Both the position numbers and the translations under genes were made by a program. From the NCBI RefSeq assembly GCF_040267705.1, contig NZ_CP158374.1, positions 1,364,001-1,428,000 of the forward strand: a stretch of DNA of 64,000 bases. The letters are read 5' to 3'. A model generated the notes under the pieces. That model ran no database searches and had not been told where the DNA came from. It saw nothing but the letters and a program-made list of their open reading frames with translations. This DNA comes from Agromyces sp. G08B096. Its GTDB lineage: Bacteria > Actinomycetota > Actinomycetes > Actinomycetales > Microbacteriaceae. Shown here in pieces: positions 46,984 through 54,585 of this stretch (position 1 is the first letter of the stretch; every line of letters starts with the position of its first letter).

Positions 46984-48119
46984 GGGTTCGCAATCAGCCG
47001 CGGCGCGGCGCCGGCAAACGGGTCGCGGTGCTCGGCGCGGGCAGCTGGGGCACGACGTTCGCGAAGATCCTCGCCGACGGCGGGGCCGACGTGGTCGTCT
47101 GGGCGCGGCGGCCCGAGCTCGCCCGCGAGATCCAGGAAGCCAAGCGCAACAGCGATTACCTGCCGGGCGTGAACCTGCCGATCTCGCTCCGCGCCACGAG
47201 TCGCCTCGATCTGGCGCTCGCGGGCGCCGAACAGGTCTACGTCTCGGTGCCGAGCCAGTCGCTCCGCGAGAACCTCAGGGCGATCGCCCCGCACCTGCAC
47301 GCCGAGGCGGCCGTCGTCTCCCTCATGAAGGGCGTCGAGAAGGCGTCGGGCCTTCGCATGAGCGAGGTCATCGCCGACGTGCTGCCCATCGACCAGTCGC
47401 AGATCGCGGTCATCTCGGGTCCGAACCTCGCGCTCGAGATCGCGAAGGAGCAGCCGACGGCCGCCGTGGTCTCCTCGTCCAGCCTCGAGACGGCGCAGGC
47501 CGTCGCCTCCGTCGCGCGCAACCGCTACTTCCACTCGTTCGTGAACACCGACGTCATCGGCACCGAGTTCGGCGGCGTGCTGAAGAACCTCATCGCCGTG
47601 GCCATCGGCATCGTCGACGGTGCGGGATACGGCGAGAACACGAAGGCCTCGATCATCACCCGGGGGCTCGTCGAGATGACCGACTTCGCCGTCGCCCACG
47701 GCGCGCATCCCGAGACGCTCTCGGGCCTCGCCGGCCTCGGCGACCTCATCGCCACGAGCCAGTCGCCGTTGTCGCGCAACAACACCGCGGGGCGGCTGCT
47801 CGGCCAGGGCTACCGTCTCGTCGACGTCACCAAGCAGATGCAGCAGACCACGGAAGGCCTGGCCTCGGTCGGCCCCGTGCTCGAGCTCGCCCGCGCGAAG
47901 GGCGTCCAGATGCCGATCGTCGAGCAGGTGCGGCAGGTCCTCGCCGGCACCCTCGACCCGCGGGACATCGCCCCGCACCTCACGACCGACGACGAGCCCC
48001 AGGGCGAAAGGACGAAGCATGGACAAGCTCAGGGTGGCTCTGCTGTTCGGCGGGCGTTCCAGCGAACACTCGATCAGCTGCGCAACGGCGGGCGGAGTGC
48101 TGGGCGCGATCGACCGTGA
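46980..48119 (+). CDS. gpsA: Glycerol-3-phosphate dehydrogenase [NAD(P)+], extended C-terminus
   Basis: A cytoplasmic enzyme that makes sn-glycerol 3-phosphate from dihydroxyacetone phosphate for phospholipids. The NAD motif is VLGAGSWGTTFAKIL; catalytic Lys in VLKNLIAVAIGIVDG, then GLAGLGDLIATSQSPLSRN. The GTG at 46980 overlaps the plsC stop. The frame runs 101 bases into ddl before a stop at 48117-48119, giving 379 residues with an Arg/Gln/Gly-rich tail of about 35 residues beyond the usual end. The overlap could be real or reflect loss of the normal stop. Confidence 0.92.
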   Translation: MRVRNQPRRGAGKRVAVLGAGSWGTTFAKILADGGADVVVWARRPELAREIQEAKRNSDYLPGVNLPISLRATSRLDLALAGAEQVYVSVPSQSLRENLRAIAPHLHAEAAVVSLMKGVEKASGLRMSEVIADVLPIDQSQIAVISGPNLALEIAKEQPTAAVVSSSSLETAQAVASVARNRYFHSFVNTDVIGTEFGGVLKNLIAVAIGIVDGAGYGENTKASIITRGLVEMTDFAVAHGAHPETLSGLAGLGDLIATSQSPLSRNNTAGRLLGQGYRLVDVTKQMQQTTEGLASVGPVLELARAKGVQMPIVEQVRQVLAGTLDPRDIAPHLTTDDEPQGERTKHGQAQGGSAVRRAFQRTLDQLRNGGRSAGRDRP

Positions 48120-49110
48120 CCGTTTCGAGGTGATCCCCGTCGGGATCACCCGCGACGGCGCCTTCGTGCTCGAACAGGACGATCCCGAGCGGTTCGGGCT
48201 CGACCCCGAGCGTCTGCCGGAGGTCGTCGACAACGGCACGCGCGTGCGCTGGCCCGAGTCGGCCGCGTCGCGCGAGCTGACGGTGACGGATGCCTCGGGC
48301 GAGCGTTCGCTCGGCGAGATCGACGTCGTCTTCCCGATCCTGCACGGCCGGTTCGGCGAGGACGGCACGATCCAGGGGCTCCTCGAGCTCGTGGGGCTGC
48401 CGTATGTCGGCAACGGCGTGCTCGCGTCGGCGATCGGCATGGACAAGCACGTCACGAAGACGGTCCTCGAGGGCGCCGGGCTCGCCGTAGCGCCCTGGGT
48501 GACGCTGACCCGCGCCGCGCTGGACGCCGACCGTGAGCTGTGGGAGCGCCGGGTGAAGGCGCTCGGACTGCCGGTCTTCGTGAAGCCCGCCCGCGCGGGA
48601 TCGTCGGTCGGGGTCAGCCGGGTCGCCGACTGGGCGGAGCTCGACGCCGCGCTGGACGTCGCATTCGCCGAGGATCGCACGGTGCTCGTCGAGGGCGCCA
48701 TGTCGGGCCGCGAGATCGAGTGCGGCGTGCTCGAAGGCCGCGACGGGCAGCCGCCGCGCGTGAGCGTCGCCGGCGAGGTGGTGGTCACCGGCCGCGACTT
48801 CTACGACTTCGAGGCGAAGTACCTCGACGCGCCGGGTGTCGAGCTGATCTGCCCGGCAGACCTGGGCGACGGCGAATCGTTCGAGCTCGCGCGGGTCGCC
48901 GCGCGGGCGTTCGAGGCGATCGGCGGCGAGGGGCTGGCGCGCGTGGACGTCTTCCTCACCGACGAGGGCTTCGTCGTCAACGAGGTGAACACCATGCCGG
49001 GCTTCACCCCGATCTCGATGTTCCCGACGTGCTGGCTGAACTCCGGGCTGAGCTACCCCGAGCTCATCACCGAGCTCATCGAGGTGGGCGTCGCGCGCGG
49101 AAGCCGCTGA
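48019..49110 (+). CDS. ddl: D-alanine-D-alanine ligase
   Basis: A 363-residue ATP-grasp enzyme that makes the D-Ala-D-Ala dipeptide for peptidoglycan. Motifs: LLFGGRSSEHSISCATAGGV (serine and histidine of the first site), FPILHGRFGEDGTIQG, KPARAGSSVGVSRV, and the Mg-binding NEVNTMPGFTPISMFP. The ATG sits behind GAAAGGAC. Its first 101 bases also encode the gpsA tail in another frame. Confidence 0.96.
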   Translation: MDKLRVALLFGGRSSEHSISCATAGGVLGAIDRDRFEVIPVGITRDGAFVLEQDDPERFGLDPERLPEVVDNGTRVRWPESAASRELTVTDASGERSLGEIDVVFPILHGRFGEDGTIQGLLELVGLPYVGNGVLASAIGMDKHVTKTVLEGAGLAVAPWVTLTRAALDADRELWERRVKALGLPVFVKPARAGSSVGVSRVADWAELDAALDVAFAEDRTVLVEGAMSGREIECGVLEGRDGQPPRVSVAGEVVVTGRDFYDFEAKYLDAPGVELICPADLGDGESFELARVAARAFEAIGGEGLARVDVFLTDEGFVVNEVNTMPGFTPISMFPTCWLNSGLSYPELITELIEVGVARGSR

Positions 49111-49131
49111 GCGGCCGGTACCGCCTCGGCG

Positions 49132-49653
49132 TCAGCCCGCGGCGGGGGTCTCCGTCGGCGCCACGTCGTCGACGGCCGTGCAGCCGCCCTCGGCCGGGAT
49201 CACCGAGACCGCGCGAGCGAGGTCGGTGAGGGCCGTGGTGCCGGAGACCGCGTCGTTGTCGACGATCACCTCGACGGCGGGCGTCCTGCCGTACGTCGTG
49301 AACCGGTAGGTCGGAGCGTCGGACTCGTCGATCACCCAGTCGACGCCGTCGACGGCGACGCAGCGGTAGTCGGTGGGCCCGGGCGGTTCGACGCCGCAGC
49401 GGAGCAGGACCGCGGCCGGCGACCCCCAGGCGCCCGTGCCCTGCGAGTTGGTCTCGCGCTGGGTCTGCTCGGCCACCGTGTCGGGCAGGCGCACGACCAC
49501 GTCGGCGCAGGCGACCTCGGTCGCGTCGGGCGCGCGTTCCAGCGAGACAGCCTGGGTGCAGCCCGTGAGCAGGGCCGCGCCGGCGACGGCGGTGAGCAGG
49601 GCGGCGGCGGTGCGTAGGCCGCGGAGCGGCGCGGGCACGGGTCGGTGAGGCAT
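49132..49653 (-). CDS. DUF3515 lipoprotein
   Basis: A 173-residue predicted lipoprotein: an N-terminal hydrophobic stretch (LRTAAALLTAVAGAALLTGC) ends in a lipobox with cysteine at about residue 32. The rest is the DUF3515 domain (CADVVVRLPDTVAEQTQR, AWGSPAAVLLRCGVEPPGPT). DUF3515 genes commonly lie between ddl and thiL in actinobacteria, as here, but the function is unknown. The gene is opposite to its neighbours and starts 24 bases from thiL, with both starts at leaderless spacing. Confidence 0.88.
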   Translation of the reverse strand: MPHRPVPAPLRGLRTAAALLTAVAGAALLTGCTQAVSLERAPDATEVACADVVVRLPDTVAEQTQRETNSQGTGAWGSPAAVLLRCGVEPPGPTDYRCVAVDGVDWVIDESDAPTYRFTTYGRTPAVEVIVDNDAVSGTTALTDLARAVSVIPAEGGCTAVDDVAPTETPAAG

Positions 49654-49660
49654 CCGGTTC

Positions 49661-49670
49661 AGGCTACCGT
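49661..49670. promoter_or_regulatory. Overlapping divergent leaderless -10 elements
   Basis: On the plus strand, TACCGT (49665-49670) lies 7 bases before the thiL ATG (49678). On the minus strand, TAGCCT (49666-49661) lies 7 bases before the DUF3515 ATG (49653). The two hexamers share the central TA pair. Confidence 0.5.
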
Positions 49671-49677
49671 GAGAGGC

Positions 49678-50688
49678 ATGGAGCAGGCTGAGCGGGCGGC
49701 ATCCGCGAGCGTGGGGCCGTCGGTCGGCGAACTGGGCGAGGCGGCGGTCCTCGCGCGGATCCTGCCGCGCCTCGGATCCGGCGATGCGGCCCTGCTCGGT
49801 CCCGGCGACGACGCCGCGGTGCTCGCCGCCGCCGACGGCCGGTATGTCGTCACCACCGACCTCATGGTGCACGGTCCCGACTTCCGGCTCGCGTGGTCGA
49901 CGCCGCACGACCTCGGCTGGAAGGCCGCCGCCACGAACCTCACCGACGTGGCCGCGATGGGGGCGAGGCCGACGGCGCTCGTCGTGGCCATCGCCGCTCC
50001 GCCGGCGACGCCGGTCGCTGTGCTCGAGGGCATCGCCGACGGGCTGCGTGACGCGCTCGCGACCCTCGCCCCGGGCGCCGGCGTCGTCGGCGGCGACCTG
50101 TCGGCCTCATCGGTGCTGACCATCGCGGTCACCGCATTCGGCGACCTCGAGGGGCGTCGGCCGGTGCTCCGCTCGGGGGCGCGGCCGGGCGACGTGCTCG
50201 CGCACGCCGGCGCGAGGGGGGATGCCGCGAGAGGACTGGCGCTGCTCTTCGCCGAGGCGGTCGACGCGGAGGGAGAGCCGGATGCCGCGGCGGCCGAGCG
50301 GCTCCGCGCGGCGCACCCGGCGCTGGTGCACGCGCAGCTGGCTCCGAGGCCTCCGGTCGGCGCCGGCGTCGCCGCGGCGCTCGCGGGGGCGACGGCGATG
50401 CTCGACGTCTCCGACGGACTCGCGCGGGACGCCCTCCGCATCGCGAAGGCGAGCGGCGTGGATCTCGACTTCGATTCGGCGTCGCTCGGACCCGACGTGC
50501 GCGTGGCCCTCGCCGGGGCCGAAGACCACGGTCTGCTCGCGACGTTCCCCGCCGGGTCCGCGTTGCCCGAGCCGTTCGAGGCCATCGGGCGGGTGCTCGA
50601 GGGCGACGGAGGCATCCGCGTCGACGGCGCACCAGCGGACGCGCTCGGGTGGGATCCCTACTCCGGCTGGGACGGCGGAGCCGGCTGA
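49678..50688 (+). CDS. thiL: Thiamine-monophosphate kinase
   Basis: A 336-residue ATP-dependent kinase that makes thiamine diphosphate. Motifs: GELGEAAVLARILPRLG, LGPGDDAAVLAAADG (Mg/ATP), TTDLMVHGPDFR, KAAATNLTDVAAMGARPTA and MLDVSDGLARDALRIA. ATG at 49678 chosen because it begins just before the conserved start and at leaderless spacing; an upstream ATG would overlap the divergent gene. Its last 31 bases overlap the convergent rsmD. Confidence 0.94.
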   Translation: MEQAERAASASVGPSVGELGEAAVLARILPRLGSGDAALLGPGDDAAVLAAADGRYVVTTDLMVHGPDFRLAWSTPHDLGWKAAATNLTDVAAMGARPTALVVAIAAPPATPVAVLEGIADGLRDALATLAPGAGVVGGDLSASSVLTIAVTAFGDLEGRRPVLRSGARPGDVLAHAGARGDAARGLALLFAEAVDAEGEPDAAAAERLRAAHPALVHAQLAPRPPVGAGVAAALAGATAMLDVSDGLARDALRIAKASGVDLDFDSASLGPDVRVALAGAEDHGLLATFPAGSALPEPFEAIGRVLEGDGGIRVDGAPADALGWDPYSGWDGGAG

Positions 50689-51278
50689 TCGGCCGACGCC
50701 CACCAGAGCGTCGTCTCGCCGTAGTCGCGCCGACGTTCGGGCGCGATGCCGACGGGCCACGACGGCTCGGGCGAGCGTGAGCTGCGCTCGACCACGACGA
50801 CCGCGTCCTCGGCGAGCAGCGGCGCCAGCGCCGCCAGCTCCCGCCCCAGCTCGGCCTCGCCGAGCTCGTACGGCGGGTCGATGAAGACGAGGTCGACCGA
50901 GTCGGACGCGTGCTCGAGGTAGGTCGAGACCGACTGCGCGGCCACCCGGATGCGCGGCACCGCCGGCGCGGACCCGCCCGATCGCGGCCGGCCGGCGCGA
51001 GCGGTGCGGAGGAGCGCATCGGCGTTCCGCCGGCACACGTCGGCGGCCGGCTTCGCCCGCTCGACGAGCACGACCTCGGCGGCGCCGCGGCTCGCGGCCT
51101 CGAGCCCGAGCGCACCCGACCCGGCGTACAGGTCGAGCACGCGCGCGCCGTCGACGGCGTCGCGCGATTCGAGCGCGGAGAAGATCGCCTCGCGCACCCG
51201 GTCGCTCGTCGGGCGGGTGCCGGAGCGCGGCACCTGCAGCGAGAGGGAGCCGGCGAATCCGGCGATGATGCGGGTCAT
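50658..51278 (-). CDS. rsmD: 16S rRNA (guanine(966)-N(2))-methyltransferase
   Basis: A 206-residue SAM-dependent methyltransferase that acts on the small ribosomal subunit. It begins TRIIAGFAGSLSLQVP, followed by the family signature RPTSDRVREAIFSAL, the SAM motif VLDLYAGSGALGLEAASRG and the catalytic DPPYELG. It overlaps thiL tail-to-tail by 31 bases. Its divergent neighbour is the TPR gene. Start chosen at MTRIIAG; the open frame upstream lacks homology. Confidence 0.94.
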   Translation of the reverse strand: MTRIIAGFAGSLSLQVPRSGTRPTSDRVREAIFSALESRDAVDGARVLDLYAGSGALGLEAASRGAAEVVLVERAKPAADVCRRNADALLRTARAGRPRSGGSAPAVPRIRVAAQSVSTYLEHASDSVDLVFIDPPYELGEAELGRELAALAPLLAEDAVVVVERSSRSPEPSWPVGIAPERRRDYGETTLWWASADQPAPPSQPE

Positions 51279-51322
51279 GCTCCGGGCAGCATATCCCGCG
51301 CGGAGGCTGCCATGATGGAAGG

Positions 51323-52390
51323 GTGGATGCCTCGACCAGCGCACTGCCCGCCGATCCGTCCCGACACCTGCAGGGGGAGGAGCAGCACGTCATCGACCGC
51401 CTGTGGGACTTCTCCGATCCCGCGAAGAGCGAGGAGCGGTTCCGCGAGGCGGCCGACGACGACTCGTACTCGGTGCACGTCCGCCAGTCGATGGCGACCC
51501 AGCTCGCCCGGGCGATCGGCATCCAGGGCCGCTTCGACGAGGGCCTCGCCGTGCTCGACGCCGTGGCCGCGGAGCTCAGCGCGAGCGAGCCCGCTGCCGA
51601 CCAGGCTGCCGTCGAACCTGCGGTGAACGAGTCCGGTGCCGATGAGGCGGCTGCTGAGCCCGAGGCGGCCGAGTCCGGCGCGGACGAGGCATCCGGCGAA
51701 CCCGAAGACGCGGCCGGCCGGCCCGAAGGTGCGACCGACCAGCCCGAAGACGCAGCGGGCCGGGCCGACGAGGCATCCGAACCGGCGCCGAGCGACGCGG
51801 CGGCCGCCGGGGCATCCGATCAGCCCGATGAGGCGGCCAGGCAGGCCGCCGCCGCCGAAGCCGCGGAGGTGCGGGCCCGGGTCGCACTCGAGCGCGGCCG
51901 CCTCCTCACCTCCGCCGGCCGGCCGGCCGAGGCCGTGCCGGTGCTCACCCGCGCCGCGCGCGACGCCGCGCACGCGGGCAGCGCCTTCCTGGTGCTCGAC
52001 GCGCTGCACATGCTCGCCCTGACCGACGCCGGACACGAGCGCGAATGGGCCGAGCAGGGCTTCGAACTCCTCGCGGCCGACCGCGACCCGCGCGTGCTCC
52101 GCTGGGGGGTCGCGCTGCACAACAACCTCGGCTGGACCCTGCACGACGGCGGCGACGCCGAAGCCGGCCTCGCCGAGTTCCAGCTCGCCGTCGAGTTCGC
52201 CGACCGGTACGGCACGACCGACCAACAGCACGTCACGCGCTGGTCGGTCGGACGCGCGCTTCGCACGCTCGGCCGCACCGACGAGGCGCTCGCCCTGCAG
52301 CGCGAGCTCGCGCGCGCCAAGCCCGACGACCCGTACGTCGCAGGGGAGATCGAGGCGCTGACGGCGGGCGACCCTACGATCGAGGAATGA
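51323..52390 (+). CDS. TPR-repeat protein with internal low-complexity insert
   Basis: A 355-residue protein. Two helical TPR-like parts (about residues 20-85 and 185-350; LHNNLGWTLHDGGDAEAGLAEFQLAVEFA is one repeat) flank an insert of roughly 95 residues made almost only of Ala, Glu, Asp, Gly, Pro and Ser, with PEDAAGR repeated. TPR proteins scaffold other proteins; the partner is unknown. The start is GTG at 51323; CATGAT 6 bases upstream may be a leaderless -10. It overlaps recG by ATGA. Confidence 0.8.
   Translation: MDASTSALPADPSRHLQGEEQHVIDRLWDFSDPAKSEERFREAADDDSYSVHVRQSMATQLARAIGIQGRFDEGLAVLDAVAAELSASEPAADQAAVEPAVNESGADEAAAEPEAAESGADEASGEPEDAAGRPEGATDQPEDAAGRADEASEPAPSDAAAAGASDQPDEAARQAAAAEAAEVRARVALERGRLLTSAGRPAEAVPVLTRAARDAAHAGSAFLVLDALHMLALTDAGHEREWAEQGFELLAADRDPRVLRWGVALHNNLGWTLHDGGDAEAGLAEFQLAVEFADRYGTTDQQHVTRWSVGRALRTLGRTDEALALQRELARAKPDDPYVAGEIEALTAGDPTIEE
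52375..52380 (+). promoter_or_regulatory. Possible leaderless -10 for recG
   Basis: TACGAT lies 6 bases before the recG ATG at 52387, inside the end of the TPR gene. recG may be made both by coupling to the TPR gene and from this start. Confidence 0.4.
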
Positions 52391-54585
52391 CGAGCGAGAC
52401 GGCCACCGCGGGTGCCTACACGCTCGACTCGCGGCTGTCCGGCGCGCTCGGCGGGCGCACGGCGCAAGCCATCGAGCGCGCCTTCGGCTACACGACCGTC
52501 GGCGACCTGCTGGCGCACTACCCCAGGCGCTACGCCCTCCGCGGCGAGCTCACCGCGCTCGCGACGCTGCCCCTCGGCGAGAACGTCACGATCGTCGCCG
52601 AGGTGCTCGAGGTGCGGGTGCGCGAGATGCGACAGCGTCGCGGCTCGATCCTCGAGGCGAAGATCTCCGACGGCACCGGGGTGCTGACGCTCACCTTCTT
52701 CAACCAGAAGTGGCGCGAGAACGATCTGCGCCCGGGGCGCCGGGGCATCTTCGCCGGCAAGGTCGGCGATTATCGCGGCAACCGGCAGCTCGCGCACCCC
52801 GACTACGAGCTCTTCGACGACGAAGCCCCGCCCACCGACGCGGCCGCGAAGCGCTGGGCGGAGGCGCCGATCGCCATCTACCCGGCGACCTCGACCCTCG
52901 CGAGCTGGCAGATGGCGAAGTCGATCGAGCTGCTGCTCGACGGGCTCGGCCCGCTCGACGACCCGATCCCGGCCGCGATCCGGTCGGAGCGGTCGCTCCT
53001 CGGCTACCGCGACGCGCTCCGCCGAGTGCACCGGCCCGAGACCGAGGCCGACTGGAAGCAGGCCAGGCGAACGCTCCGGTTCATGGAGGCGTTCGTACTG
53101 CAGACCGCGCTGCTCGCACAGCGCGCCGAGCTGCGCACCCGGCCCGCGACGCCGCGCCGGCCCATCGCCGGGGGCGTGCTCGAGCGCTTCGACGCGGCGC
53201 TGCCGTTCCAGCTCACCGACGACCAGGTCGAGGTCGGCGGCGAGATCGCCGACGACCTCGCCGCACCGTGGCCGATGCACCGGCTGGTGCAGGGCGAAGT
53301 CGGCTCGGGCAAGACGCTCGTCGCGCTCCGCGCCATGCTCGCCGTCGCCGATTCGGGCGGGCAGGCGGCACTCCTCGCGCCGACCGAGGTCCTCGCCGCG
53401 CAGCACCTCCGGTCGATCGTGCGGATGCTCGGCCCCGACCTGGCGGCCGAGCTCGTGCCGACCCTCATCACGGGCCAGCTGCCCGCGGCCGAGCGCCGGA
53501 AGGCGCTGCTGCGGGCCGCCGCCGGTCAGGCGCGCATCGTCGTCGGCACGCACGCGCTGCTCGGCGACAAGGTGGCGTTCGCCGACCTCGGGCTCGTCGT
53601 CGTCGACGAGCAGCACCGGTTCGGCGTCGAGCAGCGCGAGGCGCTCCGGCTGAAGGGCGCCCAACCGCACGTGCTCGTGCTCACCGCGACGCCGATCCCG
53701 CGCACCGTCGCGATGACGGTGTTCGGCGACCTCGACGTGTCCACGATCCGCGAGCTCCCCGCCGGCCGCGCCGGCATCGAGAGCCACGTCGTGCCGCTCG
53801 CCGTCCGACCGGCGTGGCGCGCCCGCATCTGGGACCGGCTGGCCGAAGAGCTGGGGCTCGGCCGGCAGGGCTTCGTGGTGTGCCCCGCGATCGACCCGAA
53901 GGCCGTCGAGGACGACGGCGAGGTGCCGCAGGCGTCCGCCGAGGACGCCGCCACCGACGAGCCGGTCCGGCCCGCGGCATCCGTCGTCGAGGTGCTCGCC
54001 GAGCTGCGCGCGCATCCGCGCTTCGCCGACCGCGTCGTCGAGCCGCTGCACGGGCGCATGGCGGCCGACGAGAAGGACCGGATCATGCGCGCGTTCGCCG
54101 CCGGCGAGATCGACGTGCTCGTCGCCACGACAGTGATCGAGGTGGGCGTCGACGTGCCGAACGCGAGTGCGATGGTCGTCGTCGACGCCGACCGGTTCGG
54201 CGTCTCGCAGTTGCACCAGCTGCGCGGCCGCGTCGGCCGCGGCGGCGTGCCCGGCCTCTGCCTGCTCGTCACTCACGCCGAACCGGGGTCGGTGGCGCTG
54301 CAGCGCGTCGAAGCGGTCGCCGCGACCCTCGACGGCTTCGAGCTCGCCCGTGTCGACCTCGAGCTCCGGCAGGAGGGCGACGTCCTCGGCTCCACGCAGT
54401 CGGGCGGCCGCTCCTCGCTGAAGCTGCTGAAGGTCGCCCGCGACGGCGAGGTCATCACCGACGCCCGCGGCCTCGCCGCCGGCGTCGTCGACGACGACCC
54501 GACGCTCGCGGCCCATCCCGCCCTCGCCGATGCGGTCCGGCGGCGCCTCGACGACGAGGCCAGCGGATTCCTGAGCAAGGGCTGA
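52387..54585 (+). CDS. recG: ATP-dependent DNA helicase RecG
   Basis: A 732-residue branch-migrating helicase that remodels stalled replication forks and Holliday junctions. The N-terminal wedge/OB domain includes VGDLLAHYPRRYALRGEL. Helicase motifs: QGEVGSGKTLVALRAM (I), GTHALLGDKV (Ib-II region), VVDEQHRFGVEQRE (DEQH box), LTATPIPRT (III), ATTVIEVGVDVPNAS and QLRGRVGRGG (V-VI). It overlaps the TPR gene by ATGA; coaD follows 51 bases downstream. Confidence 0.96.
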   Translation: MTSETATAGAYTLDSRLSGALGGRTAQAIERAFGYTTVGDLLAHYPRRYALRGELTALATLPLGENVTIVAEVLEVRVREMRQRRGSILEAKISDGTGVLTLTFFNQKWRENDLRPGRRGIFAGKVGDYRGNRQLAHPDYELFDDEAPPTDAAAKRWAEAPIAIYPATSTLASWQMAKSIELLLDGLGPLDDPIPAAIRSERSLLGYRDALRRVHRPETEADWKQARRTLRFMEAFVLQTALLAQRAELRTRPATPRRPIAGGVLERFDAALPFQLTDDQVEVGGEIADDLAAPWPMHRLVQGEVGSGKTLVALRAMLAVADSGGQAALLAPTEVLAAQHLRSIVRMLGPDLAAELVPTLITGQLPAAERRKALLRAAAGQARIVVGTHALLGDKVAFADLGLVVVDEQHRFGVEQREALRLKGAQPHVLVLTATPIPRTVAMTVFGDLDVSTIRELPAGRAGIESHVVPLAVRPAWRARIWDRLAEELGLGRQGFVVCPAIDPKAVEDDGEVPQASAEDAATDEPVRPAASVVEVLAELRAHPRFADRVVEPLHGRMAADEKDRIMRAFAAGEIDVLVATTVIEVGVDVPNASAMVVVDADRFGVSQLHQLRGRVGRGGVPGLCLLVTHAEPGSVALQRVEAVAATLDGFELARVDLELRQEGDVLGSTQSGGRSSLKLLKVARDGEVITDARGLAAGVVDDDPTLAAHPALADAVRRRLDDEASGFLSKG

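Follow-up and report, generated by a model that had tools for sequence, protein, structure and literature searches.

Background

Bidirectional promoters, in which the -10 elements of opposite strands overlap, often between divergent genes, have been described by Warman, Grainger and colleagues (PMC12825309, PMC10268837). The divergent start pairs in these published cases are 7 to 25 bp apart, with 23 bp as a common class. A second body of work concerns leaderless genes, which in Actinobacteria account for an average of 19.2 % of genes and are marked by a TANNNT motif about 12 bp upstream of the start codon (Zheng 2011, PMC3160421). TANNNT is found at 73 % of the primary starts of Mycobacterium tuberculosis, with no conserved -35 element; closely juxtaposed divergent promoters are common there, and the divergent genes prpD and Rv1129c are both leaderless (Cortes 2013, PMC3898074). 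The locus analysed here shares the TANNNT placement of these genes, and the two accounts differ from it in that, in the passages available, they describe no -10 element common to two leaderless genes.

Two other described systems resemble the locus in part. The lysG and lysE genes of M. tuberculosis are divergent, their promoters overlap and one lysE start gives a leaderless transcript, whereas in that system lysE is served by more than one promoter and is under the control of a LysR-type regulator bound between the two genes, and, in the passages available, only lysE is called leaderless (PMC5648196). In the EcoRV-type restriction-modification control region, the RNA polymerase sites of two divergent promoters likewise overlap, but there a control protein takes part and the C transcript is not a leaderless one (PMC5333194).

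The locus is the gap between a DUF3515 gene and thiL in Agromyces sp. G08B096, located in the window (the whole stretch of 64,000 nucleotides that was analysed). With high confidence, its 24 bases are read as one bidirectional promoter of the pseudo-symmetric -10 kind from which both mRNAs would be leaderless. It differs from the Warman and Grainger cases in its predicted leaderless mRNAs, its lack of a -35 signal and its family-wide conservation, and, whereas their definition rests on mapped starts, it is known here from sequence. The parts are already known; the combination, the minimal size and the depth of conservation are unusual. Among the papers listed by literature searches, most of them giving the top 10-20 papers, and judged by titles, opening lines of abstracts and passages, none was recognised as describing two leaderless genes with a common -10 element, and none contained DUF3515.

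Site layout and neighbouring genes

The earlier note had proposed two divergent leaderless promoters sharing a -10 core between these genes, and inspection of the sequence bore out its layout, with a gap of 24 bases (49654-49677) between start positions at 49653 on the minus strand (DUF3515) and 49678 on the plus strand (thiL), and exactly 7 bases between each of TAGCCT and TACCGT and its ATG (Table 1). The two hexamers do have the TA at 49665-49666 in common, as the note stated; this TA is the centre of a 10-mer and occupies positions 1-2 of each hexamer, not the hexamer centre. The plus strand from 49651 to 49680 reads CAT CCGGTTC AGGCTACCGT GAGAGGC ATG, so that the layout is CAT-N7-AGGCTACCGT-N7-ATG, in which the minus strand reads TAGCCT opposite AGGCTA (49661-49666). 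Through the TA the -10 elements of opposite strands overlap reciprocally, as is characteristic of bidirectional promoters, and on both sides TANNNT lies 7 bases before the start, within the 6 to 7 bases that are characteristic of leaderless genes.

Table 1 Features of the DUF3515/thiL locus in the window, and further divergent pairs that share its geometry
Feature	Position	Strand	Remarks
DUF3515 gene, putative lipoprotein (LTGC motif)	49132..49653	-	PF12028, E 3.2e-20
DUF3515-side spacer, 7 bases, -10 to ATG	49654..49660	-
Predicted DUF3515 -10 element TAGCCT	49661..49666	-	Read from 49666 to 49661, 7 bases before ATG
Shared decamer AGGCTACCGT = ANNNTANNNT	49661..49670	.	Pseudo-symmetric core of both predicted promoters
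Predicted thiL -10 element TACCGT	49665..49670	+	7 bases before ATG
thiL-side spacer, 7 bases, -10 to ATG	49671..49677	+
thiL, thiamine-phosphate kinase	49678..50688	+	TIGR01379 (E 9.5e-63, over its cut-off), PF00586
Ten other pairs (L174, L178, L179, L180, L186, L187, L189, L194, L195, L196)	1501-1530 of each locus		Exact 24-base geometry

The DUF3515 product, which is read as a putative lipoprotein from its LTGC motif, had no match in NCBIfam. No single-strand DNA hairpin was found around the gap (z 0.25). Control by a thiamine riboswitch was considered and rejected, as no Rfam match at the gathering score, including the TPP riboswitch, was obtained for 47000-52500.

The ends of ddl and DUF3515 are 21 bases apart (49111-49131), and thiL and the minus-strand rsmD overlap tail to tail by 31 bp (50658-50688), so that a transcript running past the end of one would be antisense to its neighbour. 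A scan of 48500-51000 gave no terminator-like site, and transcription continuing beyond ddl could extend to thiL, in antisense to DUF3515. Close to rsmD, the open reading frame (ORF) 51323-52390 contains a low-complexity run of PEDAAGR-like repeat units. Both the close ddl and DUF3515 ends with no terminator-like site and the thiL/rsmD overlap favour a rival explanation, in which one or both genes are transcribed mainly from a distant start, either by ddl run-on to thiL antisense through DUF3515 (a non-contiguous operon) or by rsmD read-through to DUF3515 antisense through thiL. Read-through from ddl or rsmD is possible as an additional source of transcript; as the main source it is weighed below.

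Conservation within and beyond the Microbacteriaceae

The geometry of the site, its conservation and the separate fate of its halves were established by computation. For a one-per-genus set, 91 family genomes were searched, of which 87 contained thiL, and one per non-Agromyces genus was kept, giving 80 stretches of 1061 bp at thiL. A divergent DUF3515 gene lies within 1 kb of thiL in 73 of the 80 genera. The locus is compact (DUF3515/thiL with the shared decamer and a gap of 22-26) in 60, other in 13 and without DUF3515 in seven. Since the TA, the outer A and the outer T are all part of the compact rule, conservation at those four positions is a matter of construction, and start codons in both compact and split loci were assigned with help of the motif. 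Among the compact genera the gap is exactly 24 in 26 of 60 and the decamer is exactly AGGCTACCGT in 42 of 60. At positions outside the search rule, G(-14) is present on both strands in 60/60 (the G two before TA and its mirror C), and the G three before TA in 56/60. The 80 stretches contain 450 CAY...RTG pairs 22-26 apart; in 60 of these the decamer is present at spacers of 6-8, DUF3515/thiL accounting for 58 of them.

A second set comprised the best 80 of at least 390 relatives, in which 64 loci are compact with the shared decamer, nine are split and seven have no adjacent DUF3515 gene; the compact class here required DUF3515, L036 was left out (DUF3515 not adjacent) and L019 was set to split by hand. 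The gap is 24 in 51/64 of these compact loci, and the spacers are 7/7 in 49/64. One sequence is classed differently in the two sets: as L060 it is split in the best-80 set and the tree (spacer limit 8), and as L223 it is compact in the genus set (limit 9).

The strict pattern CAT-N7-ANNNTANNNT-N7-ATG occurs at one place in the 3.59 Mb single-contig Agromyces genome and the backward pattern at none. Across the family it is present in 115 of 299 genomes (141 matches summed over rows), against 16 matches of the backward control pattern in 15 of the 299 genomes, and 21/299 genomes for a control with 10-base spacers (10/10). A hit in a single genome is weak evidence, and it is conservation together with the family-wide excess that makes the evidence strong. 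Since TANNNT is degenerate and the strict pattern occurs only once in this genome, the site could be a chance overlap of short degenerate motifs within a short gap; against conservation in 60 of 80 genera, the excess of 115 over 21 genomes and the 58 of 60 decamer-bearing pairs, this explanation was rejected as barely conceivable.

Another reading of the decamer, as an operator for a dimeric regulator that lies between the genes by chance, draws on its form as an imperfect palindrome strongly conserved beyond TANNNT, with the exact letters recurring in the 42 compact genera noted above, but perfect palindromes account for only four of the 60.

Outside the family the arrangement was rarely seen. 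DUF3515 is present in 113/149 order and 162/197 class genomes; from the best 30 loci fetched from each (60 in total), thiL was within the flanks in 55, of which three showed the loose pattern (the window, another Agromyces, L140, and L142). Excluding family members, the shared site was thus present in one of 53 order and class loci (L142). At class level the strict geometry was found in 51/197 genomes and backward-control matches in 16 (counted from the rows; the sample includes some family members), an excess much weaker than that of the family. In the class scan, CATTGTGGGAACGATACCATC...ATG also recurred in this geometry in five genomes of family f38 (G290, G321, G260, G366, G243), which would make it a further conserved pair.

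Leaderless-type starts and promoter signals

Leaderless-type starts were surveyed in the window and 20 stretches of 20 kb from the same genome, together 464 kb with 269 ORFs called by base composition. TANNNT before an in-frame ATG was found 23 times at spacing 6 and 17 times at spacing 7, with counts of 0-4 at every remaining spacing between 2 and 18; before an in-frame GTG the counts at spacings 6 and 7 were 9 and 6, with 0-3 at the others. Over both spacings, 40 ATG and 15 GTG candidate starts had a TANNNT that ended 6 or 7 bases before them, and 54 of the 269 ORFs had a leaderless-type site. Leaderless starts look common in this genome because of this peak 6-7 bases before start codons. 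The peak, the 60 of 80 compact genera and the 115 of 299 genomes with the strict pattern give good comparative support to the proposal of the earlier note that two divergent, predicted leaderless promoters have a -10 TA in common.

Taken singly, the two halves of the decamer are ordinary TANNNT motifs, positioned like those of the other leaderless-type starts in the genome, which argues against the operator reading. Among the other sites (thiL's left out, and DUF3515's not counted because the simple ORF caller missed that gene), G(-10) is present in 42/54, A(-16) in 5/54 and G(-14) in 23/54; TACCGT of thiL has C at -10, versus G in those 42. Shine-Dalgarno-like 4-mers (GGAG, GAGG or AGGA) 5-18 bases upstream were found at one of 64 thiL starts and one of 64 DUF3515 starts in the compact loci of the best-80 set, a near absence of the kind expected of leaderless genes. 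An in-frame stop lies at most four codons upstream of the thiL start in 26 of the same 64 loci, and helps to place that start independently of the motif.

The earlier note had also placed the -35 regions inside the opposing coding sequences. The geometry does put them there, but no -35-like sequence was recognised: the best TTGACA matches with spacers of 16-19 in 60 compact loci were no better than those at random positions, and a sigma-70 scan of 48500-51000 with spacers of 16-18 returned no promoter with a -35 element, and so none of the classical sigma-70 type. In this respect the site is like the promoters of M. tuberculosis. The upstream extensions GGC and CGG of the two -10 elements agree with the SRN context found upstream of mycobacterial TANNNT promoters (PMC3898074).

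The same geometry at other gene pairs

Twenty-nine loci with the exact geometry (L172-L200) were inspected, of which ten are DUF3515/thiL (identified by their N-termini), ten are other divergent pairs and nine are neither, the last not lying between two ORFs of at least 100 aa. Both divergent ORFs of the ten other pairs (Table 1) are at least 100 aa long, and the letters of their decamers differ. Each of their 20 proteins had a Pfam match (E up to 0.001), although a PadR-like protein in L174 matches Pfam only below curated cut-offs. Examples are a tetrahydrodipicolinate succinyltransferase-like protein with an M20 peptidase, an aldehyde-dehydrogenase-family protein with an MFS protein, and an M24 metallopeptidase with an HTH protein. 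Because ten other divergent pairs have the same geometry, it appears to be a recurring arrangement and not a gene-specific operator. A census of 57 adjacent divergent ORF pairs in the 464 kb, from which DUF3515/thiL was absent (DUF3515 was missed by the caller), listed five pairs with sites on both sides, none with a shared -10 element.

Lineages in which the genes lie apart

Of the 13 genera classed as other, three (L227, L233, L258) had no assignable site pair and are outside the ten counted here, in which start-to-start distances range from 40 to 330 bases. On the DUF3515 side of these ten, ANNNTA is present, as the search rule required, and the plus-strand T is gone in nine and kept in one (L266). 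On the thiL side, each has its own TANNNT 6-7 before the start, with the mirror A in three. When the best-80 set was taken together with further Agromyces loci, a DUF3515 site could be assigned in 12 split loci (eight from the best-80 set and four further Agromyces), and the plus-strand T was absent from all 12; some of these repeat the genus set, and the five Agromyces among them are close kin. The test for loss of the T is partly built in, in that a locus with a kept T and a thiL start 5-9 bases on was scored as compact. The two halves of the decamer meet different fates when the genes are apart. With A(-16) so infrequent at the other leaderless-type sites of this genome, the other promoter best accounts for the A that never varies in compact sites.

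On a quick ThiL tree of the 80 best-set loci and six outgroup rows, in which 29 of 83 inner branches are open and L060 is scored as split, the compact and split states need at least six changes, and the starred branches alone force two for the split label. A MAG contig titled Acidobacteria (L077), whose thiL/DUF3515 pair is placed among Microbacteriaceae rows on this tree, is perhaps misbinned.

These observations bear on both remaining rivals. Transcription mainly from a distant start would leave unexplained why, in 60 of 80 genera, the decamer lies at a near-fixed spacing from each of the two starts, and thiL keeps its own TANNNT in the ten split genera, an argument that is partly circular as the motif assigned the start; we regard a mainly distant start as improbable. 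A dimeric operator is less probable again, and very unlikely, given the few perfect palindromes, the unequal fates of the halves and the other letters at other gene pairs of the same geometry.

Proposed mechanism and mutual exclusion

If the 24 bases act as a bidirectional promoter, the decamer ANNNTANNNT would comprise two overlapping TANNNT -10 elements that have their first two bases in common. RNA polymerase with the housekeeping sigma factor would bind in either of two orientations and, whichever it takes, melting would proceed from the same TA. Transcription would begin 7-8 bases further downstream, at the A of one or the other ATG or adjacent to it; the spacing peak of 6-7 predicts starts for both DUF3515 and thiL at the ATG or one base before. 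Both mRNAs would then be leaderless and, having neither a 5' untranslated region nor a Shine-Dalgarno sequence, would be read directly by ribosomes. Polymerase binding, start sites and leaderless translation at DUF3515/thiL are in this sense predicted from motif placement. The predicted distance between starts is 23-25 bp, being 23 by arithmetic (from the shared -12/-11 TA and the standard distance) and 25 if transcription begins at both ATGs.

The earlier note went on to argue that polymerase can open the site in only one direction at a time, making the two genes mutually exclusive in each event. The first part is physically expected, because the two -10 elements overlap, and opposing polymerases are stated to be unable to occupy a bidirectional promoter together (Warman 2026, PMC12825309). 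Describing the genes themselves as mutually exclusive is probably an overstatement, judging from the passages available on five E. coli bidirectional promoters, where basal transcription stayed below the level at which either RNA would influence its counterpart, and weakening one direction changed the other little, with competition appearing when one direction was raised (PMC12825309). Since basal activity in E. coli was too low for competition, exclusion at DUF3515/thiL is likely to matter little except where transcription in one direction is strong.

A stronger proposal is that the shared melting point is kept since it couples the genes, each opening leading to thiL or DUF3515 mRNA and never both. 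We consider this unlikely. If true, the site would be an either/or switch that needs no regulator, with a ratio set by the two half-sites, and it would be maintained by most of the family.

Conclusions

Should the starts be confirmed, DUF3515/thiL would have a very small divergent control region, in which 24 bases hold two promoters and neither mRNA has an untranslated leader. A bidirectional promoter would then have been retained in 60 of the 80 genera sampled, and the several lineages in which the pair is naturally split make it possible to ask whether selection maintains promoter symmetry or simply allows it. Bidirectional promoters have been speculatively tied to recently acquired DNA (PMC10268837), and to that speculation, as given in the passages available, the conserved DUF3515/thiL case would be a useful contrast.
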